Positions 2,765 through 33,808 of a stretch of DNA of 41,965 nt are shown here, piece by piece. The stretch is from positions 1-41,965 of the IMG/VR virus record IMGVR_UViG_3300023094_000018; one strand, given 5' to 3'. The notes below the pieces were generated by a model. The model did no database searches, was not told the origin of the DNA, and worked only from the letters and a program-made list of their open reading frames with translations. A program made the position numbers and the translations under genes. Every line of letters begins with the position of its first letter. Within the stretch, counting starts at the first letter, position 1. This stretch comes from a virus.

Positions 2765-4664
2765 CGTAACCTTAACCGCAGTCCTAAGGGGCAACATTGA
2801 TAATCTAAACTCTTCTATGAGTTCTGCCGTCCGTACCGTAACGGATGCTTCAAGACAGATTGACACACAAGCTACAAACGCAACACGAGCCATACAAGGC
2901 ATTAACCCCGCTTCAAGGGGCGCGGCATTCGCGCTTACTAATTTTGGACGTGTTGCGCAGGATGCAGCATATGGCCCACAAGCTATTGCGAATAACTTAA
3001 ACCCACTTATTGAGGGCTTCCAAGTTGCACAGCGTGAAGCAAGAGAAACCGGAACAAGCTTAACAAGGAATTTATTAGGTGTACTTACGGGAGCGGGTGG
3101 TATTGGGGTAGCCATATCACTTGTAACGGCTGCAATTGGCTTTGCATCTGTAGGCTTAACCTTCTGGAAGGGTCGGCACAAAGAAAGTAAAGAGGCTATT
3201 GATGAGCATAGCAAAGCGTTAGCAACCTTCATAAATACCGCGTCAAAAGAAACGGCTACACTAAGCACGTTATACACAGCAACCCAAAATCAAACGCTAT
3301 CTATTAAGGATCGTAAACAGGCGGTTGACGAATTACAATCACAATACCCTGCTTATTTTAAAAACCTTAGCGATGAGGCTATATTGGCGGGTAAAGCGTC
3401 ATCTGCATACGAGAGTTTAACACAGGCTATATTAGGAAAGGCAGCTGTTTCGGCAGCGCAAGAGCAATTACAAACAGTTTTAAAGCCTTTGGTTGAACGG
3501 GCTATAAAACAAGCTGCTTTTGTTGCTGCTAACCCGGGTGCTGATGCAAGTGGAAGGGATGTTAGAAAAATAATAAAGAACATTCAAAAAGAAGCCGAAA
3601 AGCCTGGTAACGGATTAATATTACCCATTGAGAGTTTTTTGGTTAAAGGAAACTTAGCAAGACAAGATAACACAGCACCCATAAAAGCGGAGGCTGCAAA
3701 ACAGTACGATGTAACCGAGCAAATAAGAACAGATCAAGAAAAGCAAGTAAAGAAATGGCAAGATACCATACAACAACTGTTAAAACAGTTTGGTACGGGG
3801 ATAATAACAAGTGCTGGCGGGGCATTAGCTAAACCAATAGAGGGATTCGCAATATTAGAGGCTGAAATATCTAAACTAACGAAGTCTTTAGAAAATGCCA
3901 TATTAAAAGGTGATATGACCGCTGCCCATCAATTGGCTATACAATTAACAACGGTACAACAACGGTTAAAAGAAGTTCAGCAACAATTTCTAAACCTGTT
4001 AACAATGGGTCAAAGGATGCCTGACTTAACACGTGTTGGCGGTGGTGTATCTTCAGGCGGCGCATTGGGTACGGATCCAGCCACGTTACAGGGCATGCAA
4101 AATGCTATTGATGTATTGGAGAAGTACAGGCAAAAGCAGGTTGAGGTAAGATTAGGACAGGATGAAAAAGCAAAGGCTGATGAGCGTGAAAAGAATAACT
4201 TGCAAGCGATTACTGGACTTATAGGGGGCGGTTTAACACAAGCGTTTGAAAGCGCATTAACAGGGACACAAAGTTTCGTTTCGGCAATGGGACAATTTTT
4301 AACACAATTAATTAGTCGATTGGTTGCTGCTGCTCTCGCTGCTGCTGCTTTGTCTGCTTTGCTATCATTTACAGGATTGGGGGGATTACTGGGTATATCT
4401 TCAGCAAAAAGCGGCTTCGGTAATATATTCAAAGGCTTATCTGGCTTAAACTTTATGGCGCAGGGCGGTGTGGTTACAGGGCCTACTTTAGCAATGATTG
4501 GAGAGGGTAGAGATAGTGAGGCGGTTATACCTTTACCTAAACTTGATGGGATGTTAAGCAGCGCAAGGAGCGAAGGAGGCGGTAAATTAGAAGCGAGGTT
4601 AGAGGGGTCTACTTTGGTGCTTTGGAACAACAGATCTAACAAACAAAACGGGAGAACATCGTAA
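2757..4664 (+). CDS. tape measure protein
   Basis: A 635-residue protein with a helical N-terminus (NIDNLNSSMSSAVRTVTDAS), a hydrophobic segment around residues 110-145 (GVLTGAGGIGVAISLVTAAI), long coiled-coil stretches, a second hydrophobic Ala/Leu-rich region around 510-550 (RLVAAALAAAALSALLSF), and the C-terminal motif MAQGGVVTGPTLAMIGEGRD common to phage tape measures. It sets tail length; at about 1.5 angstrom per residue this implies a tail near 95 nm, on the short side for a siphovirus. The start overlaps the chaperone extension. Confidence 0.93.
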   Translation: MADVTLTAVLRGNIDNLNSSMSSAVRTVTDASRQIDTQATNATRAIQGINPASRGAAFALTNFGRVAQDAAYGPQAIANNLNPLIEGFQVAQREARETGTSLTRNLLGVLTGAGGIGVAISLVTAAIGFASVGLTFWKGRHKESKEAIDEHSKALATFINTASKETATLSTLYTATQNQTLSIKDRKQAVDELQSQYPAYFKNLSDEAILAGKASSAYESLTQAILGKAAVSAAQEQLQTVLKPLVERAIKQAAFVAANPGADASGRDVRKIIKNIQKEAEKPGNGLILPIESFLVKGNLARQDNTAPIKAEAAKQYDVTEQIRTDQEKQVKKWQDTIQQLLKQFGTGIITSAGGALAKPIEGFAILEAEISKLTKSLENAILKGDMTAAHQLAIQLTTVQQRLKEVQQQFLNLLTMGQRMPDLTRVGGGVSSGGALGTDPATLQGMQNAIDVLEKYRQKQVEVRLGQDEKAKADEREKNNLQAITGLIGGGLTQAFESALTGTQSFVSAMGQFLTQLISRLVAAALAAAALSALLSFTGLGGLLGISSAKSGFGNIFKGLSGLNFMAQGGVVTGPTLAMIGEGRDSEAVIPLPKLDGMLSSARSEGGGKLEARLEGSTLVLWNNRSNKQNGRTS

Positions 4665-7285
4665 TGGCACTTAGCACCCTATACAGCTTTTTCCAATTCG
4701 GGCAGATAAACACCGTTTCATACGACACAACAAACCCAACCTACATAACAAGTAATAGTTATCCTGCAATATCCGGCCCCGCTAAACCATCGGACGGCGT
4801 TCAAGTTGGCGCTCCTTATTGCGGCGGTACAACAAAGTATATTTATCGAGTACAAACAGCATACCCGTATGCTTATTACGAGGCTTTTCCAAACTCTACA
4901 TATTGCGGTTACGTTGCGCCAACATGTGATATAACAGAGATAAATTTTGAGGTAACGGATCAAACTGCTGACGGTGCAAATGATGGAACGGTTAACCTGT
5001 TTGTTACAAGCAGTTTTGCGCCAATAATTTACTATCTGTTCAATAATGATTTATCTATCAACCTAAGTAACTCAACGGGATACTTCGACAATTTACCACC
5101 AGATGATTACATTATCCGGGCGCAGGATGCAAACGGGTGTGACGTAACGAAAACTGCTACTGTATCCGCGTTTGACGATGCAACATTAACCCATTGGAAA
5201 TATAAATTAGACTTTGAAACGATAGATAAGCCCGGATTGGTTAAGCTGTCATGGCAGGTACGTTTATATGATATGCGTAACAACTATGACAATACGCAAT
5301 ACCCTAAAGACGTAAAAGGAACGGATAAGCCGCTAATGCTAAAACAGCAGGATAGCGCAGAGGATAAAACCACGACAATTATTAGCAGGTCTGTTGATAT
5401 AGCGTTGTTATACGATGGTGTATCATTCACTACTGATGAGTTCACTAAAGCACCCGAAAAGCAATGGAAGGTTGAAATATGGGCAAACGGCTCGGTTGAT
5501 TTTATCGGATGGATGCTTCCAGATGAAACACAAGATTACTATCAAGATCCAAATTATCCATTTACCTTAACCGCAACCGACGGATTACCTTCATTAAAAG
5601 GTAATCTTTGGGGCGATGGATCGGGCGGTAATGGTTATACATCGGATCAAGTGCCTCAATACGCCTTATTGCAATGGTGCGAATTACTTAAGCAATGCTT
5701 AGATCAATTAGGCTATGATTACGGGCGTATAACGATACTTTCTTCTTTGCGATATAACAACTCATACAATAGCGATTTATGGTCTAAGATAGCCACATGG
5801 AGCGATTTAATGTATGGTACTGATGGTGTGCCTAATTCAACTTATGAGTGCCTGGAATTATTGGTCAAGGGCATGGGATTGTCTATTATTCAGCACAAAG
5901 GTAAATTCGTGTTTCTTAACTGGAACGACCTGTATTACTATGGAAAGTCACTAAACGCATTAGAGTTTGAGCGCGCGTTTTACACAGTAGATCTGCAAAC
6001 AGGTACAACTACCGGCAGTGGATCAACTGTTGACCATCCCGTTTATCAATCAATTGGTTTCGATCAGCCATTTCTACCAATGGGTACACAGCCTTTAAAT
6101 TATGATAAGGCATATAACATTAAAGGTAATGTAGATTTTAATATATTGGCCTTGTTATATCCTAACCCATCGTTTGAGATTAACTCGGTTGAGGGAGTGT
6201 TGCCTGAAGGATGGGAACAGTTTACCCCAAATTCAGCGTTTTTGCATAATGACATTACCGCGTATGACGGGGATTGGGAATTAAGGGTGCAAGGTTACTC
6301 AACTTTTGAGGATGCTTTTTACAATCAAATACAAAACGGCACTATACAAACAGGTGTAAATACCAATAATGTAAGCAGCCCTCAATATGTTCAATTTGAA
6401 GATGGATGGCAAATTGACCAACCTAATAAATTACTTAAACTATCATTTGTTTGGAGACCTTTAAAGTATTCTGATGATTTTAACGCAGCCCCGGTGGTTG
6501 GTTTATTATTCATTGGGCAAAGCGGAACAAGGTGGGCTTTTCATATAGAAGAGCAGAAGTGGCTTGCGGGTAATCAATCGCTTGCATATTCTTTCCCTAT
6601 AGGTAGCACCAGGATTACAGACTATAACGCGTGGAATAGTTTTAGTGTGTCTACAAACGCTTTCCCAGAAGATTTCGGGCGGGTTTATGTTCAGTTTTAT
6701 GGACCTGTTCCCGTTGGAGAGGATGGTTATGAAGATCAAAATAGTACCATTAAAACAATTGATTTTGATAATTTTGAAGTATCTCTTGCTGATGGGAACG
6801 AAGCCTACTCTAAACAGACAGGTGAAAGCCACATAACAACAATTGTTACTAACCCACAAGCCAATCAAAAAGAAGTGCCGTTAAGGCTATTTACATATCC
6901 ACAAAATAAGCGGATAGCAGGCAACTTGTTTACACAAACCCCTTATGAAGATGGAGTGGTGGCTAACCTTTGGAACTATTCGCTTAAGTCATTAGACCCA
7001 TTAGATAGGCTACCTGCAACCATTACAAGGGCTATAGCGCGTAATTATGCACGTCCTATGCAAATATTCGAGGGAGATATAATATGCGCTTACGTGGCTT
7101 ATTATGGGGTATTTGCTTTGCGGTTTTATCCTAATGACATATTCAGGGCTTTTAATATATCATTGGATGCCCGCAATGCAATAGCATCGGTTACCATTGT
7201 TGAGATAGATGATAGTGACGCGCAATTTACCTACAAATACGTAGCTAAATTTGAAAAGAGTTCGAGAAAGAATATAAATAGTTAG
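4664..7285 (+). CDS. large distal tail / baseplate protein with a SprB-like domain
   Basis: An 873-residue protein directly after the tape measure, where distal tail and hub proteins are encoded. Residues about 88-168 look like one SprB-type repeat: a short strand, GTVNLFVTSS, then FDNLPPDDYIIRAQDANGCD, close to the 'nLpaGtYtv.vtDanGC' pattern of Bacteroidota SprB repeats. After that come segments with hub-like features (VDFIGWMLPDETQDYY; LEFERAFYTVDLQTG) and a carbohydrate-binding-like beta region around 500-700 (PNPSFEINSVEGVLPEGWEQ). It probably links tube to fibres and may contact the cell surface. A precise family cannot be given. Confidence 0.7.
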   Translation: MALSTLYSFFQFGQINTVSYDTTNPTYITSNSYPAISGPAKPSDGVQVGAPYCGGTTKYIYRVQTAYPYAYYEAFPNSTYCGYVAPTCDITEINFEVTDQTADGANDGTVNLFVTSSFAPIIYYLFNNDLSINLSNSTGYFDNLPPDDYIIRAQDANGCDVTKTATVSAFDDATLTHWKYKLDFETIDKPGLVKLSWQVRLYDMRNNYDNTQYPKDVKGTDKPLMLKQQDSAEDKTTTIISRSVDIALLYDGVSFTTDEFTKAPEKQWKVEIWANGSVDFIGWMLPDETQDYYQDPNYPFTLTATDGLPSLKGNLWGDGSGGNGYTSDQVPQYALLQWCELLKQCLDQLGYDYGRITILSSLRYNNSYNSDLWSKIATWSDLMYGTDGVPNSTYECLELLVKGMGLSIIQHKGKFVFLNWNDLYYYGKSLNALEFERAFYTVDLQTGTTTGSGSTVDHPVYQSIGFDQPFLPMGTQPLNYDKAYNIKGNVDFNILALLYPNPSFEINSVEGVLPEGWEQFTPNSAFLHNDITAYDGDWELRVQGYSTFEDAFYNQIQNGTIQTGVNTNNVSSPQYVQFEDGWQIDQPNKLLKLSFVWRPLKYSDDFNAAPVVGLLFIGQSGTRWAFHIEEQKWLAGNQSLAYSFPIGSTRITDYNAWNSFSVSTNAFPEDFGRVYVQFYGPVPVGEDGYEDQNSTIKTIDFDNFEVSLADGNEAYSKQTGESHITTIVTNPQANQKEVPLRLFTYPQNKRIAGNLFTQTPYEDGVVANLWNYSLKSLDPLDRLPATITRAIARNYARPMQIFEGDIICAYVAYYGVFALRFYPNDIFRAFNISLDARNAIASVTIVEIDDSDAQFTYKYVAKFEKSSRKNINS

Positions 7286-7301
7286 TATATTGCGAACGTA
7301 C

Positions 7302-7373
7302 TCCAAAGTAACTCAGTTGGTAGAGTGTCAGATTGAAGATCTGATGGTCAATGGTTCGAATCCATTCTTTGGA
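7302..7373 (+). tRNA. tRNA-Phe (anticodon GAA)
   Basis: The full cloverleaf is present: acceptor TCCAAAG/CTTTGGA (7 of 7 pairs), D stem ACTC/GAGT with loop AGTTGGTA, anticodon stem TCAGA/TCTGA with loop TTGAAGA (anticodon GAA), variable loop TGGTC, T arm AATGG-TTCGAAT-CCATT. Total 72 nt, no encoded CCA. It lies 16 bases after the distal tail gene and is followed by a tRNA-like fragment and a terminator. Confidence 0.95.
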
Positions 7374-7378
7374 ACTGG

Positions 7379-7457
7379 GTAGGTTCGAGTCCTACAATAG
7401 CCGTGAGCGGTGGTAGTCCACGTTGTCGAAATAACCAAAGGTCAATAGTACCGGCTA
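7379..7457 (+). ncRNA. orphan T-arm plus structured RNA downstream of tRNA-Phe
   Basis: Bases 7379-7395 form a perfect T arm (GTAGG-TTCGAGT-CCTAC) followed by what would be the 3' strand of an acceptor stem (AATAGCC). No matching 5' half is found upstream. The next 60 bases are structured: GTGG/CCAC at 7110 plus 300, that is 7410-7421, makes a small hairpin, and TAGCCG (7398-7403) can pair with CGGCTA (7452-7457). It may be a tRNA remnant or a small tRNA-derived RNA co-transcribed with tRNA-Phe. Function is unknown. Confidence 0.45.
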
Positions 7458-7493
7458 AGCGCAATATTCATTAATTGGGTGTTGCGCTTTTTT
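7457..7493 (+). terminator. rho-independent terminator after the tRNA region
   Basis: Stem AAGCGCAA (7457-7464) pairs perfectly with TTGCGCTT (7482-7489) and runs into six T (7488-7493). It would end transcripts from the tail operon and tRNA before the next tail gene at 7523. Confidence 0.8.
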
Positions 7494-7522
7494 ATGTTAT
7501 TTTATTTATATTTACCCTCATA

Positions 7523-8113
7523 ATGGCAAAAAGGATTATAACAGGTAATGAATTAATATTTTATATACAGCTATCTGTTGGTTACCGTTCTATTTGCCAC
7601 TCAAAAGATACCAAACTAAGCACATCGGCCGACCTACTGGAGACTACTACAAAGGATAACGGGAAAGGTAAGCGGTATGAATACGGAGGTAAAACATCCA
7701 CTACGTTAACTGTAAATGCGTTAACAAATACGATAGACGATGCTAACTTTTCGGAGGTGCAGGATATTATATTGCAAACGAGGAAGCTGCCGTTTCTGTT
7801 TACCGATAACAATAATATACAATGGTCTGGAACTGTATTGCTTACCACTTTCGATTTAGATAGCCCTGATAACGCAGTAAGCTCATTTAACGGAACGTTT
7901 GTTGTTGACGGTGATTTAGTAAAGGCCTTTGACCCCGACGCTCCATTACCTCCAGCGGGTAGTACCGTGCAAATTCTTGACCAATTCGGCAACATACTGG
8001 CAGTCATAAATGCACTAGGTACATATTCAGTAGTTCAATTTGATACATTAGACCAGCGTGGATGGGAAAACCCTGACATGATAATTACCTCACAAGATGC
8101 CTTTAGTAGCTAA
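7523..8113 (+). CDS. second tail-tube-like protein
   Basis: A 196-residue protein from the ATG at 7523 (MAKRIITGNELIFYIQ). A TTG at 7475 in the same frame lies in the terminator hairpin and is rejected as start. The middle part (STSADLLETTTKDNGKGKRY, then TLTVNAL) has the same pattern as TP901-1-type tube proteins, where a 'teT.kd.g.w.ey..g...w.i...' motif precedes the core sandwich. The last 45 residues (PLPPAGSTVQILDQFGN) look like an added linker or small beta domain. It overlaps the next gene by 17 bases. It could be a tube-fold baseplate component or a decorated tube subunit. Confidence 0.6.
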   Translation: MAKRIITGNELIFYIQLSVGYRSICHSKDTKLSTSADLLETTTKDNGKGKRYEYGGKTSTTLTVNALTNTIDDANFSEVQDIILQTRKLPFLFTDNNNIQWSGTVLLTTFDLDSPDNAVSSFNGTFVVDGDLVKAFDPDAPLPPAGSTVQILDQFGNILAVINALGTYSVVQFDTLDQRGWENPDMIITSQDAFSS

Positions 8114-13176: not shown

Positions 13177-13206
13177 ATGGATAACACAAGCCAAACAGGT
13201 ACATGA
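13177..13206 (+). CDS. possible 9-codon leader peptide (MDNTSQTGT)
   Basis: ATG GAT AAC ACA AGC CAA ACA GGT ACA TGA, with GGGG just before the start. Its stop overlaps the start of the fibre gene by ATGA. It may serve translational coupling or simply be chance, since it is very short. Confidence 0.35.
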   Translation: MDNTSQTGT

Positions 13207-15782
13207 ATAAAATCAAATTAGCGTTATTGGTGGTATTGCTGCCGTTATTTGCTATAGGGCAAACGACACCCGCGCAGGATACCACATTAATCACCCCCTC
13301 AACAGCCGTTACACCACAATATCGCTACTCATATATAGGTGGTAACATGGTGCTGCAATCTTATATTAATGGCAAGTATTACTACTTCCCAACTAATAAG
13401 ATGATTAGGAATTTATTTGTGGATAAGTCAACTAATCAAACTATAGCAGGCGAAAAGACATTTACAAACTATCTACAAATAAATGGAGGCAGCCAATTTA
13501 ATTCTCAAGCAAACTTTTTAGGAAATGTAACAATAGGAGCATCTGGTCAACCGGGCATGTTCATATATGCGGATGGATCTCAAACAATTAGATTTGACGC
13601 GGTATCACCAAAAGACCTTAAATTTGATCCTACTATTGGGCGTTTGAAATTCGGACCCGCTAATTCGGCTAATGAAACGTTAGCTTATGTAAGCGAGATA
13701 ACGGGGGCGGGGGGCTTAACCTACTCAAAGGCTCAAATAGACAGTATAGCTAATTTGAGGGCTACAAATTTCGCCTCTTTCAAAGAAGTATGGGTAGATA
13801 CATTAGGCAACAATGCAACCGCTTTAATTGGCAGGAAAGATAAACCTTTCGCTACTTTGGCGGGCGCAATTACGGCTACTACAGGGCGTACTATTATTCA
13901 TATTGGTGTTGGCCGTTTTGTAACGCCTGGTGTTTTACCACGTTCAAATATATCTCTGTTAGGCTCTGGGAAACCTGTACCAAACTGGACGCTATCTTAT
14001 ACCGCTTTATCTTTATCATCGCCTGTAATTACTTACACCGCACCGACTAAACTAATTGGCGGTACTGTTATTGTAGGTGAGTTGATTGACACGCTACACA
14101 ACAATATCAAGATAAAGGATTTAGGTGTCGATTGTGGTAAAGAATGGAAAGATGCGGGCGGCTCGCCAACGGTAGGTTCTTTAGCTATTTACGCAGGGCA
14201 AGCACAGGCGGCTCAATCTGCGAACCCTCAAAAGTATGGGATAGAAGTTGAGAACGTTGCAGCTTTATCTTATACCGCAAATAACGGTCAACACGCCTTT
14301 TTATTTGAGAATATGTACGGGTTTAAAGGGCGCAATCTTAGTTCATACTTTGGGGCACATGGTTTAGCTTACAAAGGCTCTTATGGTACGATAGATGGTT
14401 TTGATGGACACGGGCATACAAGTGATGCATTTATTACTAAAGGGGATGTTTACGCTTATAACTATAACAATACTTTCAGTAACATTGCCATTACCTCAAT
14501 AGCAAGCGGGGACGGTGCAGGTATAAACGTAGGATCTGTAAACTCTGTTATTTATAACAACTCATTTAATAATGTAAATTTTGACGGTACAACATTTGGT
14601 TTCAATATTGGCGGTACATCCGGTGGGTATGTAAACGGGCTTCAAATATCAAACGTAGCAGCCCGTAACGTGTCTGGTTATGCGTTGGTATTGGCTGATA
14701 CACTTACGCGCAATCTTAATGTTAACGGTTTATTAGGTGTAAAAACAGCAGGTGTATTTGCAAGGTTTGGTAATTTAAGCGGAGCGAATAATCTTAATGC
14801 TATTAATCTTATCAACACGGTAGGCACGGCTTACGACATTCAAACCCCCTCTTCTATATCGCCCTCAAACGTAACGCTAACTAATTCCAGCGCATCAGGT
14901 AGTACTACAAAGGATTACGGTTTTTCAGGTAGCGTTTCAGGTAATGGAAATTGGTTTCAAACGCCATCTGTTACGAATACAGGGGTGTATTACACCAACA
15001 ACACAAAGGCTCCTATTAACGCTTTATCTGATCTAAGCAGGTTCGGTGTAAGTACGGAAAAGGTTTGGCTTGGATCTAATGCTTTTTCTTTTAACCGCAA
15101 TTTAGGTACAGGCGTACAGGATGTAACAACTACATCCTCTTTACAATGGCAGCATAGCGCAAACACTACACCGGGTACTGACAACTTTGCTTATCAGATC
15201 AGGAACACAACAATTGGCTTGCTTAACCGCGCATATTGGAATGGTAACGGCAACTTCGGCTTTGAGGCCAACCAAAACGATAGCAAGTTTAAATTAGGGG
15301 TTGGTACAACTACATACAGTTCATTAAACATACCCGCAGGTGTAGCTAAAACAACTCCTGTAGATGGTGATATTTATAAGGGGGCAACCAGGTTATTTAT
15401 ACAAGACGGGGGCGTGTCTAATACCATTGCTTATTTGAGTGATATTGTCGGCAGAGGCCGCGTAGTTATGTCAGCAAATATCACAGGCATATTGAACTAT
15501 GACTACCTAAATAACACCGCTAACACTTATAACTTCACAGTACCCGCAACTACAGGTTTTTCAACTGATGGTAGTAGTATCATTACTGGCCTTGTAATAG
15601 GTACAGGTAAGATCAGGATATTTGCACCATCTGGATATACCATACAAACACCATCGGGTTTTATAACGCCGGTTACGGGCTATGCAGAGGTTATACAAAA
15701 TCAAAAATACCAATTGATACCAGTTGGAACAAACGCTTATTATTTACAACCTTTAAACGGGTCTATTACCATCGTACCATAA
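13203..15782 (+). CDS. tail fibre / tailspike-like protein with signal peptide
   Basis: An 859-residue, Gly/Asn/Thr-rich protein. Residues 1-20 (MNKIKLALLVVLLPLFAIGQ) look like a classical Sec signal peptide, cleaved before or after Gln20. Then come phage-fibre phrases (NQTIAGEKTFTNYLQINGG), a long parallel beta-helix-like middle (about 195-560, with repeated short strands and turns rich in N and G, for example NNTFSNIAITSIASGDGAG), and a C-terminal region with DGDIYKGATRLFIQDGG, seen in Bacteroidota phage fibres. It likely binds or degrades surface glycans. The presence of an export signal on a virion-type protein is unexpected. Its stop overlaps the next ATG. Confidence 0.75.
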   Translation: MNKIKLALLVVLLPLFAIGQTTPAQDTTLITPSTAVTPQYRYSYIGGNMVLQSYINGKYYYFPTNKMIRNLFVDKSTNQTIAGEKTFTNYLQINGGSQFNSQANFLGNVTIGASGQPGMFIYADGSQTIRFDAVSPKDLKFDPTIGRLKFGPANSANETLAYVSEITGAGGLTYSKAQIDSIANLRATNFASFKEVWVDTLGNNATALIGRKDKPFATLAGAITATTGRTIIHIGVGRFVTPGVLPRSNISLLGSGKPVPNWTLSYTALSLSSPVITYTAPTKLIGGTVIVGELIDTLHNNIKIKDLGVDCGKEWKDAGGSPTVGSLAIYAGQAQAAQSANPQKYGIEVENVAALSYTANNGQHAFLFENMYGFKGRNLSSYFGAHGLAYKGSYGTIDGFDGHGHTSDAFITKGDVYAYNYNNTFSNIAITSIASGDGAGINVGSVNSVIYNNSFNNVNFDGTTFGFNIGGTSGGYVNGLQISNVAARNVSGYALVLADTLTRNLNVNGLLGVKTAGVFARFGNLSGANNLNAINLINTVGTAYDIQTPSSISPSNVTLTNSSASGSTTKDYGFSGSVSGNGNWFQTPSVTNTGVYYTNNTKAPINALSDLSRFGVSTEKVWLGSNAFSFNRNLGTGVQDVTTTSSLQWQHSANTTPGTDNFAYQIRNTTIGLLNRAYWNGNGNFGFEANQNDSKFKLGVGTTTYSSLNIPAGVAKTTPVDGDIYKGATRLFIQDGGVSNTIAYLSDIVGRGRVVMSANITGILNYDYLNNTANTYNFTVPATTGFSTDGSSIITGLVIGTGKIRIFAPSGYTIQTPSGFITPVTGYAEVIQNQKYQLIPVGTNAYYLQPLNGSITIVP

Positions 15783-16357
15783 TGAAAAAATTGCTTCTGC
15801 TCTTGTTGTTGCCTTTATGCACCAACGCACAATACATTAAATCGTTTAACTCTACAGGGCAAAAGATTGTCAGATACCCTGAATTGACCGTTACAAATAC
15901 ATTAGGGAATTCAGGGGTTGAAAAATCACTATTACCTAATCCTGATACTATCTTTGCATCATCGGTAAACATTGGTAGCCGGTATTCGTTTAGCTTGCAA
16001 TTGAACGTTACGAGTCCTTTACTATCAGTTGGTACGTTAACGTTAAAGGTTAAGTTAGGAGGATCAACATTAACGCTTGCTAATGGGGTATCCGTTGCAG
16101 GATTGGGCGCAACAACCCCTATTTACATAGAGGGTGAAGTAGAGATAAAGGGCATGCAAAGCCAAATAGTTAACGCCAGGATCTTACAAATGAACGGTGT
16201 GGCTATCCCTGTAGGCAGTTCATCCATCACACCGCAAGCTGACTGGACAAACGATATGACACAGGTGCAATACTTCGATATCACCGCAACATTTACCGGA
16301 GTTACACTCGGTACAACTTCATATAAATCACGTATCTTTAGACGAATATTAGAATAA
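15782..16357 (+). CDS. secreted beta-rich protein, fibre partner
   Basis: A 191-residue protein with a signal peptide MKKLLLLLLLPLCTNAQ (cleavage after Ala or Gln near 16-17) and a beta-rich mature part (GTLTLKVKLGGSTLTLANGV, then YIEGEVEIKGMQSQIVNARI). It reads like the C-terminal beta-sandwich seen in phage fibre tips, and its start overlaps the stop of the fibre gene, so they should be made together. It could be a fibre chaperone, tip protein or exported decoy. No certain family. Confidence 0.65.
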   Translation: MKKLLLLLLLPLCTNAQYIKSFNSTGQKIVRYPELTVTNTLGNSGVEKSLLPNPDTIFASSVNIGSRYSFSLQLNVTSPLLSVGTLTLKVKLGGSTLTLANGVSVAGLGATTPIYIEGEVEIKGMQSQIVNARILQMNGVAIPVGSSSITPQADWTNDMTQVQYFDITATFTGVTLGTTSYKSRIFRRILE

Positions 16358-16363
16358 TACATT

Positions 16364-16606
16364 ATGAACGCACAAGAAACAAAGGCATTAAAGGTTAGCA
16401 TCTTCAGCGGGATATTTAAAGTGCTTTTAAAGCCGCTTATTAACGCAGTTAAAAAAGAATTCAAAGAACATGCTTTGGAGTACCTTATTGAGATTGTGAA
16501 AGATATTTTTGACAAGGATGATGAAGTAACTACAGAAGGCGAGCCAACATGTCCACAAGGTTACGTTTGGAACGGGGTTAGATGTGTGCCGGATGTGGGC
16601 GCGTAG
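16364..16606 (+). CDS. small amphipathic protein with CPQGYVWNGVRC motif, 80 aa
   Basis: Residues 1-50 form an amphipathic, partly hydrophobic helix (IFSGIFKVLLKPLINAVKKE); the C-terminus has a two-cysteine loop CPQGYVWNGVRCVPD, a pattern frequent in secreted or virion-associated small proteins. It follows the fibre pair after six bases. Possibly a peripheral membrane or fibre-associated protein. Confidence 0.6.
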   Translation: MNAQETKALKVSIFSGIFKVLLKPLINAVKKEFKEHALEYLIEIVKDIFDKDDEVTTEGEPTCPQGYVWNGVRCVPDVGA

Positions 16607-16964
16607 TTCGTTAATAGGATTGGGCGGGTTGATTATTCAATCCGCATGTTTTAATTTATACCTATACGAATTGTTTTTAGGGGAATGGCATAGCACACAA
16701 GCTAAAGCTTTCTTTTATATCACATCAGCGTTTATACTATTGGCAAGGATAATTGAAGACTGTATAGGTTATAAAAGCAATTACCAATTTCAGTTTAACA
16801 TTATATCTAAGGTTTGCTTCGTTGCCAATTTCATTTTATTTTTCTTAGCTTTAGATACTGATTTTAACAACCCAATTATTTACATATCTACATTTAACGG
16901 CTCTGTTTTTGCTATTTCAGCTATAGTATTCACAAGCGGATTAAAACATGGATTATTCGATTAA
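16593..16964 (+). CDS. four-helix membrane protein, holin candidate
   Basis: About 123 residues from the ATG at 16593 (an ATG at 16584 would add three). Four hydrophobic segments are visible, about residues 5-25 (LIGLGGLIIQSACFNLYLYE), 38-55, 70-88 (VCFVANFILFFLAL) and 95-116. It overlaps both neighbours. The size and context (next to small membrane-anchored coiled-coil proteins) suit a holin or other lysis function, but no holin family motif is evident. Confidence 0.6.
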   Translation: MWARSSLIGLGGLIIQSACFNLYLYELFLGEWHSTQAKAFFYITSAFILLARIIEDCIGYKSNYQFQFNIISKVCFVANFILFFLALDTDFNNPIIYISTFNGSVFAISAIVFTSGLKHGLFD

Positions 16965-17205
16965 CAAAATGCCTGTACCACAACACAACGTAGGATGGTT
17001 TGATATATTAAACTTTGCACAGGCCGTTACCCCATGGTTTGTATTAGGTGGTATATTTTGGCGTTTAATTGATAGGGTTGTTAAATACTTTGCTGAAGGC
17101 CGTGAAGCTGAAATGAACAAGCTAATAGACGCTAAAACAGCCCCCCTGACGGATGCAATTGATAAGTTAACACATGCGGTTAATGAATTAAAATTTAAGC
17201 TGTGA
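16948..17205 (+). CDS. membrane-anchored coiled-coil protein, holin/spanin candidate
   Basis: 85 residues: one membrane segment around residues 24-42 (AQAVTPWFVLGGIFWRLIDR) then a charged helix to the end (EGREAEMNKLIDAKTAPLTD), consistent with a small phage holin or i-spanin topology. The final TGA overlaps the GTG start of the receiver-domain gene (GTGA), so the two are translationally coupled. Confidence 0.6.
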   Translation: MDYSINKMPVPQHNVGWFDILNFAQAVTPWFVLGGIFWRLIDRVVKYFAEGREAEMNKLIDAKTAPLTDAIDKLTHAVNELKFKL

Positions 17206-17609
17206 CCCCGATTAAAATCCTTATTAACGTATTAGATGATGAGCGTATCTGGCAAGATTTAATCATCAGCCAACTATCTGGCAATTACGATATTTTAGCC
17301 TATACCACATTTTCCGATTTTATTGCCCACTTTACACCATCTGTTGATCTGGTTATTATGGATGTTCGATTAAAGGATGGAACAGACGTTGCAGATAGGA
17401 TTAAAAGCATTTATGATATATCCCCCAACTGTTATATAATAATCGTTTCAGCGTTTTTAGATGTGCCTTTGCTGCAAGAATTAATCAGGTTACGTGTTAA
17501 CGATACAGTACAAAAAGGCTCTAACTGGATTAGCGAATTAGGAGATGCCGTTAATGCCCTATCTGATAAGCTGCAAGCAAGATCTGAAATGAAAGGCTCA
17601 TTCAAGTGA
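17202..17609 (+). CDS. stand-alone response-regulator receiver (REC) domain protein
   Basis: A 135-residue CheY-like protein with GTG start. All receiver landmarks are present: acidic pair Asp12-Asp13 (INVLDDERIW), phospho-acceptor Asp54 at the end of strand 3 (DLVIMDVRLKDG), Ser83 (YIIIVSAF) and Lys105 (VNDTVQKGSNW). The order and spacing (12/13, 54, 83, 105) match CheY almost exactly. There is no output domain beyond about residue 125. Both ends are coupled by GTGA overlaps to small membrane proteins, so it is made as part of the lysis-like cassette. It could be phosphorylated by a host histidine kinase, compete with a host regulator, or time lysis. Such genes are rare in phages. Confidence 0.85.
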   Translation: MTPIKILINVLDDERIWQDLIISQLSGNYDILAYTTFSDFIAHFTPSVDLVIMDVRLKDGTDVADRIKSIYDISPNCYIIIVSAFLDVPLLQELIRLRVNDTVQKGSNWISELGDAVNALSDKLQARSEMKGSFK

Positions 17610-17839
17610 GCATAAATGAAATAATAGGATCTGCAATAACACTTATAACGACGCTGGGTGGGTTCTTTGCGTGGATTGAAACGCGGTCAGAAAAAAGATC
17701 TGCTAAACTAATGTCTGATATTGCCGCCATGATGGATAGTAAAATAGGTGAATATGCTAATCGTGTGCAATCTGAAAAAATGATACAACTGGAGCGCGAA
17801 TTAGATAGGATGAGAGAATACGCAAGGGATAAGAAGTAG
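17606..17839 (+). CDS. membrane-anchored coiled-coil protein, spanin-like
   Basis: 77 residues with GTG start. One N-terminal membrane segment (INEIIGSAITLITTLGGFFA) then a long charged coiled coil (KLMSDIAAMMDSKIGEYANR, MIQLERELDRMREYARDKK). This is the layout of inner-membrane spanins or small phage holin accessory proteins. It overlaps the receiver-domain gene by 4 bases and ends next to a convergent leftward gene. Confidence 0.6.
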   Translation: MSINEIIGSAITLITTLGGFFAWIETRSEKRSAKLMSDIAAMMDSKIGEYANRVQSEKMIQLERELDRMREYARDKK

Positions 17840-18370: not shown

Positions 18371-19255
18371 CTAACCTTGTCCAAATATCTGCGGCAATAA
18401 ATCCTTTACCCGTTTGTAAGTAAGGTATTGCAAGGCGCTAAAATCTATAGTGGGATTTTTGTATTTTTTTATGAAGTTCCAGCAATCTTCATTTACTAAA
18501 TCGTAATACACTGTATTCAACAATTGCGGGATCTGCTTAGAATGAAAGCCATCGTTAGTGACCCGTATTTTATCAAATACCTTATCAACTAATGCCTGCG
18601 TAACAAACTCATTTACTATTTCTTCAGCGATCGGCGGTTTCATTTCTTTTGCATGTTTAGCCCTAAATTCAGCCGTCACGATTTTAGCCCAAACATTACG
18701 CCCGTATTTGTTTTGAAAGGAATAGTTTTTTACTACTATTCCTTCACCACATCCTTTACCATCTTCAATTAGGTAATTGTTGCCTTCTAAGTGAGTGATA
18801 AACCTTTCATAATCGCCGTTTTTGCAAATAGATAAAGGCGGGATATATTCAATGTCGAATTCATCTAACATTGGTTTATAAGTTGCGTATGGAAAATATT
18901 CATCAGAGTGATGTACCATTACGTCAAATACATAAAAGTTACGCCACGCGTCTTTACGGTATGTTTTAAGGCTATGCGGAACAAGCCACTCGCCGTATAA
19001 AACAACATCGGGGTATTTTAGGAAAAAATTAATGAACTTAAATTGATCGGCAGCCCAGTTATAGAAACCAGCATTATCATTATCTAACGACAAATGGCGG
19101 TTGCGGCTACCAGCCTGCAATCCATTATCCCACCAAAGCGATGCGTTTGTTCCGTCTATTTTCGGGAAAATGTAGGTTTCGCCTAAGTGAATGTTCATGG
19201 CATCGTCTGTGCCAAAGCGTACCAAGTGCTGGTACTTTTTGAATTCTTTTTGCAT
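18371..19255 (-). CDS. RNA ligase (Rnl2-like, PF09414-type)
   Basis: A 294-residue nucleotidyltransferase. Motif I is PKIDGTNASL with Lys32 as the adenylated residue (K-x-D-G). An YGEW box lies at residues 87-90, motif III at FYVFDVMV (107-114), motif IV at EGIVVKNY (171-178) and motif V at VWAKIV (188-193, Lys191). Such enzymes seal nicks in RNA and, in some phages, repair tRNAs cut by host anticodon nucleases. The only other RNA-related gene here is tRNA-Phe; no end-healing kinase/phosphatase is visible. It is transcribed leftward from the promoter at 19278-19307, divergent from the endolysin operon. Confidence 0.85.
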   Translation of the reverse strand: MQKEFKKYQHLVRFGTDDAMNIHLGETYIFPKIDGTNASLWWDNGLQAGSRNRHLSLDNDNAGFYNWAADQFKFINFFLKYPDVVLYGEWLVPHSLKTYRKDAWRNFYVFDVMVHHSDEYFPYATYKPMLDEFDIEYIPPLSICKNGDYERFITHLEGNNYLIEDGKGCGEGIVVKNYSFQNKYGRNVWAKIVTAEFRAKHAKEMKPPIAEEIVNEFVTQALVDKVFDKIRVTNDGFHSKQIPQLLNTVYYDLVNEDCWNFIKKYKNPTIDFSALQYLTYKRVKDLLPQIFGQG

Positions 19256-19428: not shown

Positions 19429-19505
19429 AAGTAAATATCAAACGAATTAGCAAAGAGCGAATTGCCGAAATGCGTATATCCGCTTATAAATTATTAATAC
19501 CATGA
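19425..19505 (+). CDS. basic peptide, 26 aa, coupled to endolysin
   Basis: [20 protein letters not shown] then YKLLIP. A strong GGAGG ribosome site lies seven bases before its ATG. Its TGA overlaps the endolysin ATG. The purine-rich site seems to serve this peptide rather than the endolysin, so endolysin synthesis may depend on termination of this frame. Confidence 0.5.
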
Positions 19506-19972
19506 TAAGCACAACCGATCTAATTGCAAAATACGGTACGCCTAACCCAACGGGTAAAGGCTACCTAACTACAATTACGCTACCTTATAAAATGCGTGTT
19601 GCATGGGCTCGTAAAGAGTATATAACAAAAATGCAATGCCATAAGTTGGTTGCTGCAAACTTCATTTCTGTTTTTAACGACTTATTAGCGCATTATGGCT
19701 ACGATGAATTAGTTAGATTAGGGATAGACCTTTATGGTGGATGCTTTAACTACAGGCTTATGAGAGGTTCTACAAAGACGCTATCCAGGCACTCATGGGG
19801 GACTGCTATTGATTTAGATCCCGATAGGAATTTGTTACACGAAACATCTGCAACAGCTCGCTTTGCACGACCTGAATACAAACCAATGATTGATATATTT
19901 TATAAGCATGGTTTTGTCGGATTAGGCAAAGAGAAAAATTACGACTGGATGCACTTTGAGATAGCTAAATAA
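19502..19972 (+). CDS. endolysin, M15 L-Ala-D-Glu or D-Ala-D-Ala peptidase (VanY-like)
   Basis: A 156-residue zinc peptidase. The metal-binding set is clear: [13 protein letters not shown] (His97, Asp104) and [10 protein letters not shown] (Asp148, His151), as in peptidase family M15. It lacks a signal peptide, so it needs a holin to reach the wall. It cuts peptide bonds in peptidoglycan cross-links and so should be the main lysis enzyme. It is the third frame of a coupled chain that starts at 19330 and is followed after two bases by a membrane protein. Confidence 0.9.
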
Positions 19973-19974
19973 TT

Positions 19975-20250
19975 ATGACAGAAACTAAAATATTAATCGA
20001 CAACAAAGCTGTACCTGTTTCAGAAACAAAAGTACAGTTCGGAGCATTAAGCGCGCCAACTCCTTTATGGGCTACATGGGTATTTAGGATTACATTTATT
20101 GTAACCACCGCCATGACCTTTTGGATAGGATCTACAGGGTTATTGAGTAATCCCGCAAAAATAGAGATTATAACGGCTCTAAAATCGCTTGATATGGTTG
20201 TATTAGGCTTGTCCAAATTGTTAGGTATAGTTCCTAATTCGGAGAGTTAA
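19975..20250 (+). CDS. small membrane protein next to endolysin, holin candidate
   Basis: 91 residues. A soluble N-terminus of about 30 residues precedes one clear membrane segment (LWATWVFRITFIVTTAMTFW) and a second hydrophobic stretch (ALKSLDMVVLGLSKLLGIV). Immediate linkage to the endolysin makes it the best holin candidate of the genome. The end overlaps the convergent gene at 20234-20416 by 17 bases. Confidence 0.6.
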   Translation: MTETKILIDNKAVPVSETKVQFGALSAPTPLWATWVFRITFIVTTAMTFWIGSTGLLSNPAKIEIITALKSLDMVVLGLSKLLGIVPNSES

Positions 20251-24106: not shown

Positions 24107-24138
24107 TTTGTTTTATAAATATATGTTCTTTACATTTG
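24107..24138 (+). promoter_or_regulatory. rightward promoter for the DNA-metabolism block
   Basis: TTTG (24107-24110), 20 bases, TACATTTG (24131-24138): a full match to the Bacteroidota consensus. The methyltransferase start at 24163 lies 25 bases downstream. It is back to back with the leftward promoter, 20 bases away. Confidence 0.75.
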
Positions 24139-24162
24139 TCAGTATCAAAAACAAAATATATT

Positions 24163-24642
24163 ATGAAAGACAAAAACTTACCCGTTGATAATAACTGGAT
24201 AACACCTAAAAATGTGTATGATAAGCTAGATTCAATATTTCATTTTGACTTCGATCCTTGCCCTTATAATTCTGGTGTAATTTCAGATGAAGAGAATGGT
24301 TTATTGATGCAAAGATGGGGTAAATCAAACTATGTAAATCCTCCATATACTTTAAAAGAAAAAGAAGCATTTCTTAAAAAAGCAATAGAAGAACGATTAA
24401 AGGGTAATACATCTGTATTTTTATTACCTGTAAGTACATCTACTAAGGTGTTTCATGAAATAATTGTTCCCTACGCTACTGAAGTAGGATTTGTACAAGG
24501 AAGAATTAAATTCCAGAAACAGGACGAACAAGGCAATCTGTACACGCCTAAAAATGGCGGGATGCATGACAGTATGGTTGTTGTGTTTGATGCCAATAAA
24601 CCTTTACAGTTTGAACCTAATTACTATACAATAAAATTTTAA
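24163..24642 (+). CDS. phage DNA N6-adenine methyltransferase (Dam-like, PF05869-type)
   Basis: A 159-residue protein. Landmarks: WITPKNVYDKLDSIFHFDFD, which leads into DPCPYN (cofactor site in this family), then SNYVNPPYTLKEKEAFLKKA with the catalytic NPPY, and LLPVSTSTKVFHEIIV. The family methylates adenine in phage DNA, usually to escape host restriction. The ATG at 24163 is preferred; a TTG at 24136 falls in the -7 element. It is the first gene of the rightward DNA block. Confidence 0.85.
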   Translation: MKDKNLPVDNNWITPKNVYDKLDSIFHFDFDPCPYNSGVISDEENGLLMQRWGKSNYVNPPYTLKEKEAFLKKAIEERLKGNTSVFLLPVSTSTKVFHEIIVPYATEVGFVQGRIKFQKQDEQGNLYTPKNGGMHDSMVVVFDANKPLQFEPNYYTIKF

Positions 24643-27115: not shown

Positions 27116-27663
27116 AAAACTGGCAGTATTTTGATAACATAACTAAAAAGTGGTACGATGAAAGCCCATGTGTTATCTCACGGTACAATACATTTAGTGA
27201 CTATAACGAAGCAGGAATAAGGGCAGGAATTAAATCAAGAATAATCAAAAATAACATGAAAATAGAAAGTTTATCTACCCCAGTTGCATTCTTAAATGGT
27301 ACAATTGGACTTTGTGGGCCAGAGGAAGAATTGTTTGATATGTTTAAATCTATTGGGATTAATCCAATATTAGTTGAGGATTTGTATAAGCACCCTCAAA
27401 ACCTCTTAGATTTAAAAAAGCACAGTATAAAAACCTTGTGCATACAAACTACAGGTAACAATTTTGAGGATGTTAATAAAGCTATAGCTTTTTTTGAAAC
27501 AATGAATTTCGTACCTGAAAACATAGTTTTGATTTTTACTGAACCTTTATGGTGCATAGCAAAGGATTTCAAACAAGAACACCCTGAAACGATGATATAT
27601 GAATACCGCTCTTTTAGGTTTGGTAGTGACGATTTATTAGAAGAATTTACTTTTGGATCATGA
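27112..27663 (+). CDS. hypothetical protein, 183 aa
   Basis: From the ATG at 27112. Begins MKNWQYFDNITKKWYDESPC; the middle has a Rossmann-like alternation (IKTLCIQTTGNNFEDVNKAI, then VPENIVLIFTEPLWCIAKDF). No catalytic motif is clear. It overlaps the C5 methyltransferase start (ATGA) and may be functionally tied to it. Confidence 0.65.
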   Translation: MKNWQYFDNITKKWYDESPCVISRYNTFSDYNEAGIRAGIKSRIIKNNMKIESLSTPVAFLNGTIGLCGPEEELFDMFKSIGINPILVEDLYKHPQNLLDLKKHSIKTLCIQTTGNNFEDVNKAIAFFETMNFVPENIVLIFTEPLWCIAKDFKQEHPETMIYEYRSFRFGSDDLLEEFTFGS

Positions 27664-28379
27664 AATATCTTAATCTACACGCGTGTATAGGCGGCAATAG
27701 AAAGCTGCTTCCTAAGTGGGTAAAAGTAACAGCAGTCGAATACGACCCAAAAGTTGCCGAATTGTACAAAAAACTTTACCCAGATGATGATGTGATTGTG
27801 GGGGATGCTTACGAATACCTTTTAAATAATCATCAACATTTCGATTTCGTTTGGGCATCGCCACCATGCCAAACACACAGCAAAATGAATAAGTTTACCA
27901 GGCACAATACAATTAGATATGTGGATGGAAAACTGTTCGAAATAATTATCTTTTTAAAGCACTGGTTCGCCATCAATAAAACAAAAGGGTATATAGTTGA
28001 AAATGTTGTTCCTTATTACGACCTAGCATTTAACCCTGTAAAAATGGGCAGGCACTTGTTTTGGAGTAATTTTGATTTTTCCCCTATCGAAGTCAAATCG
28101 CCACCTGATTTCACAAGGGCTAAAAAACAAACCATGATGGATTGGTTGGATATACATTTTGAAGAAAACATTTATTATGGCAAAAACCATTGCAATGTTC
28201 AGATACTAAGAAATGCTGTTCACCCTAAAATTGGGGAAAGTATTTTTAATGATTATTGCAAATGGTTAAAAAAGGACTATGATTTTTTTGATTTGGATTT
28301 AGAACGAGAAAAAGCCATTTATTATCACGCCGTGCCTAATTTGTTTTTTGATAGCGATGGCAATAAAAGAGAATATTAG
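27660..28379 (+). CDS. DNA C5-cytosine methyltransferase
   Basis: A 239-residue short-form C5 methyltransferase. Motif I-like start LNLHACIGGN (residues 4-13), motif II acidic AVEYDP, motif IV WASPPCQTH with catalytic Cys70, motif VI YIVENVV (Glu114), and the C-terminal RNAVHPKIGESIF corresponding to motif X. The QxRxR motif VIII and target-recognition region are much reduced compared with typical 300-400-residue enzymes. It could protect phage DNA from restriction. The preceding gene is coupled to it. Confidence 0.8.
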   Translation: MKYLNLHACIGGNRKLLPKWVKVTAVEYDPKVAELYKKLYPDDDVIVGDAYEYLLNNHQHFDFVWASPPCQTHSKMNKFTRHNTIRYVDGKLFEIIIFLKHWFAINKTKGYIVENVVPYYDLAFNPVKMGRHLFWSNFDFSPIEVKSPPDFTRAKKQTMMDWLDIHFEENIYYGKNHCNVQILRNAVHPKIGESIFNDYCKWLKKDYDFFDLDLEREKAIYYHAVPNLFFDSDGNKREY

Positions 28380-32755: not shown

Positions 32756-33808
32756 ATGACAGAACTACACAACACCATCCACCTAAGCGACAACATTGCT
32801 TTCCTGAAAACCTTAGCCGATAATAGCGTAGATTGCTTTATAACCGATAGCCCTTACGGATTTGGAAAAAAGCAGAATATGGTTAAGGTATTGCAAGCCT
32901 GGATCACTACCGGCTATTTGGAAATTACAGGCACCGGATTCATGGGTAAAAAGTGGGATGCTTTTGTACCACAACCTATCCTATGGAAAGAAGTTTACCG
33001 GGTGCTTAAGCCGGGAGGTTACTGCCTGTCATTCTTTGGTACACGTACCTATCACTTGGGCACGTTGGCTATGGAAATAGCAGGCTTTGAGGTAAGGGAT
33101 CAGATAGACTGGCTTTATGGCAGCGGTTTCCCTAAAAGTAAAGCAACGCTAAAGCCAGCGCACGAGCCTATCGCCGTTTGCAGGAAACCAGGGCCTTTGC
33201 AGTTGTTGAATATTGATGAGTGTAGGATAGAAATGCACGAAGGCGATACTAAGGGCGAATTTGGTAGCAGGATAAATACTATCGCTCCAAAGAGTAAAAA
33301 CGCTTATGGAAGTTTTTCGGATAATACGAGGGACGCAGATAATAGCGTTGGTAGATGGCCAACTAATATTATGATTGATGAAGATTTCGCAATTGTTTTA
33401 GATGAACAAAGCGGTGTATCAGGGGGTGATAAACGAAAATCAAAGCTACAGACAGGAAGTAATGGCAACTTTACAACGCAAAAGGCAGGGCAGTTAACTC
33501 CCTGCTACAACGACATTGGCGGTGCATCCCGTTTCTTCTACATAGCCAAAGCATCACCTTCAGAACGTGCAGGCATGAAGCACCCAACAATTAAGCCAGT
33601 TAAATTAATGACACACCTTGTAAAGCTATTTTGCCCTGTAGGTGGTGTAGTGGTAGATCCTCACTTTGGCAGCGGCCCAACAGGCGTAGCTTGCTTAGAA
33701 ACCGGGCGGCATTACATCGGTATCGATAACGACCCTGTATCTGTAGAAGAGGCTAAGGGTAGGATTGCAAGGTGGAAAGAGAAGCAAGGATTGTTTACAA
33801 CACACTAA
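32756..33808 (+). CDS. DNA N4/N6 methyltransferase
   Basis: A 350-residue beta-class enzyme. The catalytic motif IV reads FITDSPYGFG (normally D-P-P-Y), the cofactor motif I is at the C-terminal side, VVVDPHFGSGPTGVACLETG (normally DPF.GSGTTG), followed by YIGIDNDPVSV. Between them GWYCLS-like VLKPGGYCLSFFG and the target-recognition region. Two classic motif positions carry substitutions (DSPY; GPTG), so activity should be tested. It lies just before the packaging genes. Confidence 0.85.
   Translation: MTELHNTIHLSDNIAFLKTLADNSVDCFITDSPYGFGKKQNMVKVLQAWITTGYLEITGTGFMGKKWDAFVPQPILWKEVYRVLKPGGYCLSFFGTRTYHLGTLAMEIAGFEVRDQIDWLYGSGFPKSKATLKPAHEPIAVCRKPGPLQLLNIDECRIEMHEGDTKGEFGSRINTIAPKSKNAYGSFSDNTRDADNSVGRWPTNIMIDEDFAIVLDEQSGVSGGDKRKSKLQTGSNGNFTTQKAGQLTPCYNDIGGASRFFYIAKASPSERAGMKHPTIKPVKLMTHLVKLFCPVGGVVVDPHFGSGPTGVACLETGRHYIGIDNDPVSVEEAKGRIARWKEKQGLFTTH

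Follow-up and report, generated by a model that had tools for sequence, protein, structure and literature searches.

Holin accumulation and the energy state of the membrane determine the time of phage lysis. In bacteria, the two-component system LytSR is linked to the holin-like membrane proteins LrgAB and CidAB and to cell lysis. LytSR differs from the locus described here in that it is chromosomal and exerts transcriptional control through a full response regulator with a DNA-binding domain.

In the Alteromonas phages V22 and A5, a CheY-like gene has been assigned to a host-recognition module and described as an auxiliary metabolic gene, and the available text of both publications does not mention a lysis context for it (PMC7289586, PMC10579305). 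The receiver of the phages R8W and H4/4 has been published as a 'putative DNA-binding response regulator' (PMC8228385). In the EpsW-EpsZ system of Myxococcus xanthus, a phosphorylated single-domain response regulator acts directly on a membrane protein and not on DNA (PMC12802240). Finally, the cREC domains of jumbo phages are receiver-like, have conserved aspartates and occur outside two-component systems (PMC7824862). No paper joining phage response regulators with lysis was found in the searched literature, whose coverage leaves out most subscription journals.

The locus analysed here is part of a 41,965-base virus record in IMG/VR, referred to in its entirety as the window. Like the window, V22 (gp30) and A5 (gp11) carry an orphan receiver directly after a gene for a small coiled-coil protein with a hydrophobic N-terminus, which in turn follows a tail fibre. 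However, their receivers share only about 16-25% identity with that of the window, they are other phage types with other hosts, and they have no second coil gene of the 77-aa kind described below. In R8W and H4/4, the receiver is located between a coil gene with one membrane segment and another membrane gene, with 4-nt overlaps on both sides as in the window, although these phages are T7-like podoviruses. The initial annotation of the window knew of no described phage system with this arrangement. This is not supported, as the genes were already published in V22, A5 and R8W. EpsW provides a precedent for a single-domain regulator working on a membrane protein, as proposed here, but the system is bacterial, involves a known kinase system (Dif) and targets a phosphoglycosyl transferase instead of a lysis protein. 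In contrast to the window receiver, cREC is a divergent domain linked to NAD/ADP-ribose enzymes and not to membrane or lysis genes.

Receiver gene and operon in the window

Judged by its sequence, the window is a Bacteroidota-type tailed phage, with a TerL that is 45% identical to those of Nonlabens phages and 63% identical to sequences inside Dyadobacter genomes. Two records are used for comparison: L002 (record G001, 42,896 bases), the sole other IMG/VR phage found with the receiver and the 77-aa unit, and G007, whose TerL is 67% identical to that of the window. The receiver operon and the nearby lysis genes comprise the following features.

13203 to 15782, + strand: tail-fibre/beta-helix-like protein of 859 aa, first gene of the operon, with a signal-peptide-like start; its N-terminal 72 aa are 52% identical in L002; identity to G007 is 34%
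15782 to 16357, + strand: protein of 191 aa with a signal-peptide-like start; L002 has a gene of equal size with a similar start
16364 to 16606, + strand: operon protein of 80 aa with a C-terminal Cys motif; L002 and G007 have different proteins in this place
16584 to 16964, + strand: membrane protein of 126 aa with four hydrophobic segments (Kyte-Doolittle), 28% identical to the L002 protein in that place
16948 to 17205, + strand: protein of 85 aa directly before the receiver, with an N-terminal hydrophobic stretch and a coiled coil; homologue in G007 (31%, E 5e-14)
17202 to 17609, + strand: orphan single-domain receiver of 135 aa with a GTG start and the residues D12, D13, D54, S83 and K105
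17606 to 17839, + strand: protein of 77 aa, candidate partner of the receiver, with an N-terminal hydrophobic helix followed by a charged coiled coil, predicted to be cytosolic
19502 to 19972, + strand: M15 peptidase endolysin (Pfam PF13539, 4.7e-10; PHROG 6584, 6.5e-75; PHROG 17001 endolysin, 7.6e-49)
19975 to 20250, + strand: holin-like protein of 91 aa with two hydrophobic segments, following the endolysin; no family match was found for it

The window receiver is a complete single-domain response regulator of the CheY/Spo0F/DivK kind by domain, residues and predicted fold. PF00072 was detected over residues 10-107 with 34.0 bits (cut-off 30.2, E 3.5e-8), and the Pfam scan found no second or output domain. 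The acid pair (Asp12, Asp13), the phospho-acceptor (Asp54), the Ser/Thr position (Ser83) and the Lys (Lys105) are all present, and the residue following Lys105 is Gly/Ser, where Pro is usual. The five residues named in the initial annotation are thus confirmed at their positions, and its description of a receiver without an output domain is borne out. AlphaFold2 with only the window and L002 sequences gave a poor model (pLDDT 65), which was superseded by a model from 18 aligned phage receivers (pLDDT 93.1, pTM 0.87). The latter shows five strands and helices in receiver order, the classical (beta-alpha)5 arrangement, plus an extra C-terminal helix. Its top PDB match is a LuxO-type receiver (3cfy) with a TM-score of 0.77-0.80, and other near solved structures are the ordinary receivers XynC, PorX, CpxR and DctD.

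These properties bear on two alternative explanations. The gene could be an ordinary auxiliary metabolic gene of the PhoB kind that affects host transcription, as published for R8W gp48 (L120, 4001-4462; PMC8228385). However, gp48 consists of a receiver domain alone with 153 aa, and a DNA-binding domain was found in none of the ten lysis-linked receivers scanned, all of which are 135-153 aa long, so that this explanation is disfavoured and highly improbable. For the window receiver, assignment as a PhoB/OmpR transcription regulator was rejected because the winged-helix DNA-binding domain is absent (Pfam). Alternatively, the receiver fold could serve without phosphorylation as a scaffold for membrane coiled coils or as a chaperone of a lysis protein, which would be compatible with its orphan status and the conservation of its candidate binding face. 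Such a structural or adaptor role is very unlikely, since the alignment of 18 diverged phage receivers shows no variation at D13, D54 and K105, and a scaffold could do without these residues.

The coupling to membrane coiled-coil genes on both sides that had been proposed for the receiver is supported, with a correction for one neighbour. The GTGA overlaps with the 85-aa gene (17202-17205) and the 77-aa gene (17606-17609) are present, but the hydrophobic stretch of the 85-aa protein is weak in the window (Kyte-Doolittle), whereas it is clear in the L002 counterpart. The 85-aa gene occupies the position that the gene before the receiver has in other phages. A role of the 77-aa protein as a histidine phosphotransfer protein was rejected, as the window protein contains no His and the single His of the L002 protein is not conserved. 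No histidine-kinase domain was found in the window record by the domain scan. The proposed location within a lysis cassette is likewise upheld by comparison with relatives but not by the window itself, where the endolysin and the holin-like gene lie 1.7 kb downstream of the receiver operon, beyond two reverse-strand genes. One of these encodes an RNA ligase (18371-19255).

Several other features of the window were observed. Tail-fibre-like proteins with an apparent Sec signal peptide start, such as MKKLLLLLLLPLCTNAQ, occur in three distantly related phages, and signal-peptide-like starts are found at 13203-15782 and 15782-16357 in the window, at 4614-7745 and 7747-8322 in L002 and at 13704-16034 in L172. 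A Sec-like start is unexpected in virion proteins, which are assembled in the cytosol. Phage_tail_2 occurs twice (1621-2058 and 7475-8113), a tRNA-Phe gene (7302-7375) lies in the tail module just ahead of the second tail-tube gene, and the 42-kb window contains three different DNA methylase genes of the Dam, C5 and N6/N4 types (24136-24642, 27660-28379 and 32756-33808).

Conservation of the receiver pair among related phages

The window and L002 are distant phages overall, with few matching proteins, 27% identity of the major capsid protein and no match of TerL. Nevertheless, the receivers are 66% identical (PF00072 with 45.2 bits in L002) and the 77-aa proteins 78%, whereas the 85-aa and 126-aa counterparts share 21-28% identity and the other common genes reach 21-63%, in most cases in partial alignments. 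The N-terminus of the tail-fibre-like protein is among the better conserved parts. Purifying selection acts on both the receiver (pN 0.22, pS 0.80) and the 77-aa gene (pN 0.14, pS 0.85), since synonymous sites are saturated and replacement sites are not. The conservation of the neighbours in related genomes, a check suggested in the initial annotation, was thus found in L002, which keeps the unit.

Within the receiver, the catalytic loops are fully conserved between the two phages, followed by the region from alpha4 to beta5 (13/17) and by alpha1 (7/11), while alpha5 (5/11) and beta2-alpha2 (2/12) are poorly conserved. This pattern is relevant for the main rival to lysis gating, a decoy that would take phosphate away from a host histidine kinase, or block this kinase, late in infection. 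Envelope-stress, T9SS/PorY-like or chemotaxis kinases would be candidates, and the coil protein would merely tether the receiver near membrane kinases. A receiver without an output domain in a phage without a kinase fits this explanation, as does the fair conservation of alpha1, the usual kinase contact, and late silencing of envelope-stress responses would presumably benefit the phage. However, conservation is at least as high for the alpha4-beta5 output face and for a specific membrane partner, a decoy would not need to be encoded next to lysis genes in so many kinds of phage, and the receivers are very diverged between lineages, unlike mimics of one host protein. A kinase decoy is therefore considered unlikely.

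The receiver is absent from all 30 TerL relatives and, among 31 records including L002, present solely in the latter, which indicates that it is an accessory gene. In G007, the operon is kept without the receiver and without the window-type 77-aa partner gene. The gene order there is a tail-fibre-like gene, a 77-aa gene, a gene for a 119-aa hydrophobic protein in the place of the 126-aa membrane protein, and a gene for the 89-aa homologue of the 85-aa protein. The latter ends 1 nt before an M15 endolysin (PHROG 894, 1e-22; Pfam Peptidase_M15_3), which is followed by an 89-aa holin-like gene. Since this homologue abuts the endolysin, the 85-aa protein belongs to the lysis cassette with or without the receiver. 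By comparison of the gene orders, the receiver and the 77-aa gene look like an insertion between the 85-aa gene and the endolysin side of the lysis cassette.

Searches for further relatives of the pair returned little. Scans of IMG/VR with the operon proteins of the window and L002 found L002 alone, and direct tblastn searches with the window receiver and the 77-aa protein found no convincing relative in INPHARED. The 77-aa protein was not found among 84,980 genomes. In 401 Sphingobacteriales genomes, receivers of the general kind scored at most 37 bits, and the 77-aa protein gave no convincing match.

Receivers beside lysis genes in other phages

The wider survey began from the literature on the Alteromonas phages V22 and A5 and was seeded with Alteromonas-phage receivers. 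In about ten further phage types, including myo-, sipho- and T7-like phages and schitoviruses, an orphan receiver was found behind a small membrane or coiled-coil gene and next to genes for an endolysin, holin or spanin. Together with the G007 cassette, this supports the link to lysis made in the initial annotation. In V22 and A5, the protein encoded upstream has a short hydrophobic stretch at its N-terminus and a charged coil. Downstream of the receiver are genes for an Rz-like spanin (PHROG 4297, 8.5e-6 and 2.9e-8) and a two-segment holin-like protein. An endolysin after the holin-like gene is annotated in A5 and also present in the V22-like L135; L133 and L137 are of the V22 type as well, and L139 is of the A5 type. 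The coil/receiver unit is next to a lysozyme gene in R9Y1-3 and comes after a class II holin in the T7-like phages R8W and H4/4. Other units are accompanied by an adjacent amidase endolysin (L129/L130), a weak spanin match (L131), a lysozyme and a weak Rz match (L154/L158/L160) or an endolysin on the other strand (L128). In XX1924 and L156/L157, the membrane segment is C-terminal and not N-terminal, but the coil is still predicted to face the inside and a holin is nearby. In L163, an endolysin adjoins the receiver, but no coiled-coil gene was seen.

In several coil proteins, such as V22 gp29 and A5 gp10, the short hydrophobic stretch does not reach the simple threshold applied. Membrane anchoring of these proteins is a prediction, and the positive-inside rule predicts that the coil faces the cytosol, that is, the side of the receiver. 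The spacing between coil gene and receiver ranges from -29 to +8 nt, and the 4-nt overlap of the window recurs exactly in 4 of 14 cases. Exactly one receiver was present in 18 of the 19 records scanned, with none in G007. HATPase_c did not exceed the cut-off in any of these 19 records in the domain scan; A5 has one sub-threshold match in an 854-aa frame.

Some phage receivers are located away from lysis genes (L159, L162, L168, L171). Those of L162 (4956-5360) and L171 (4998-5375) stand alone in apparent structural clusters and are possibly a second kind of phage receiver. Two possible further cases were left uncounted: a receiver close to an endolysin in L167 (3888-5384), and one in L169 (4998-6163) with a membrane protein gene and a gene for a lipoprotein-like product close by. 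L132, L134, L138, L164-L166 and L170 were set aside because their surroundings were not considered phage lysis contexts, and many INPHARED receiver matches (Listeria, Acinetobacter MD-2021a and others) were excluded as apparent host chromosome within phage records.

Another possibility is that proximity to the fibre matters and not proximity to lysis genes, with the receiver and the membrane proteins altering the host envelope or excluding other phages. For V22, A5 and P24, the publications place the gene within a transferred host-recognition module and classify it as a class II auxiliary metabolic gene (PMC10579305, PMC7289586), and the window operon also starts with a gene of the tail-fibre kind, the N-terminus of which is one of the parts better conserved with L002. 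However, the receiver is almost always on the lysis side of the fibre, overlapping or abutting lysozyme, spanin or amidase genes, and the unit is constant while the fibres differ. A role in host recognition or superinfection is thus quite unlikely.

Stand-alone receivers were near lysis genes in 11 of 16 separate phage types with long records, compared to a rough expectation of 1.9, counted with a crude 7-kb rule and leaving out fragments. This count is rough, given the Alteromonas-phage queries, the non-independence of the window and L002, and the clustering of late genes. The similarity matrices of coil proteins and receivers are correlated (Spearman 0.59, Mantel p 2e-4, n=14), as expected under co-inheritance, although shared phage ancestry can give the same result. 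In a tree of 43 receivers with weak support, the window and L002 form their own long branch apart from the main Alteromonas-phage group, a placement compatible with a single origin as well as with several. Comparison of the 85-aa and 77-aa proteins with Alteromonas-phage coiled-coil proteins using hhalign yielded probabilities of 13% and 8%, at which homology is not detectable; the likeness is one of architecture and position and not of sequence. Because of the weak tree support and the lack of detectable similarity between the coil sequences, the units are described here as a recurrent arrangement and not as one family.

Possible role in lysis control

The best explanation, with a probability of roughly 0.5, is that the receiver, as a single-domain response regulator in the lysis cassette, acts together with a coiled-coil protein anchored in the membrane and gates lysis. 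The receiver would be produced late, within the tail-fibre/lysis transcript. Asp54 would be phosphorylated by a host kinase or by acetyl phosphate, since the phage has no histidine kinase. One phospho-state would then use its alpha4-beta5 face to bind the 77-aa protein, and perhaps also the 85-aa protein, at the cytosolic coiled coil. This binding may either promote or restrain the lysis step served by these membrane proteins, and lysis would thereby depend on the energy or envelope state of the host.

Phosphorylation, partner binding, an effect on lysis and its direction are inferred. Several points favour gating: purifying selection on an intact receiver, the pair being kept better than the other shared genes, the G007 cassette, the recurrent arrangement, the single receiver per phage without a kinase domain over the cut-off, the correlated similarity matrices, the rough excess of receivers near lysis genes and the conserved alpha4-beta5 face. 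The distant endolysin in the window, the absence of coil homology and the location of some receivers far from lysis genes argue against it. The closeness to lysis genes could also reflect expression timing, as late genes cluster anyway.

More tentatively, and with somewhat less than even odds, the arrangement may represent a widespread, unrecognised way in which phages control lysis. Unrelated phages would have repeatedly acquired an orphan phospho-receiver together with a cytosolic coil tethered to the membrane and inserted both into their lysis cassettes, thereby coupling when or how the cell lyses to the phosphorelay or acetyl-phosphate state of the host. The arrangement is present in the cultured phages R9Y1-3, H4/4, R8W, V22, A5 and XX1924 and is therefore directly testable. 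Several published 'CheY/PhoB auxiliary metabolic genes' are better regarded as components of lysis cassettes, and a phosphorylation input would be a new kind of lysis control that ties the decision to host signalling.
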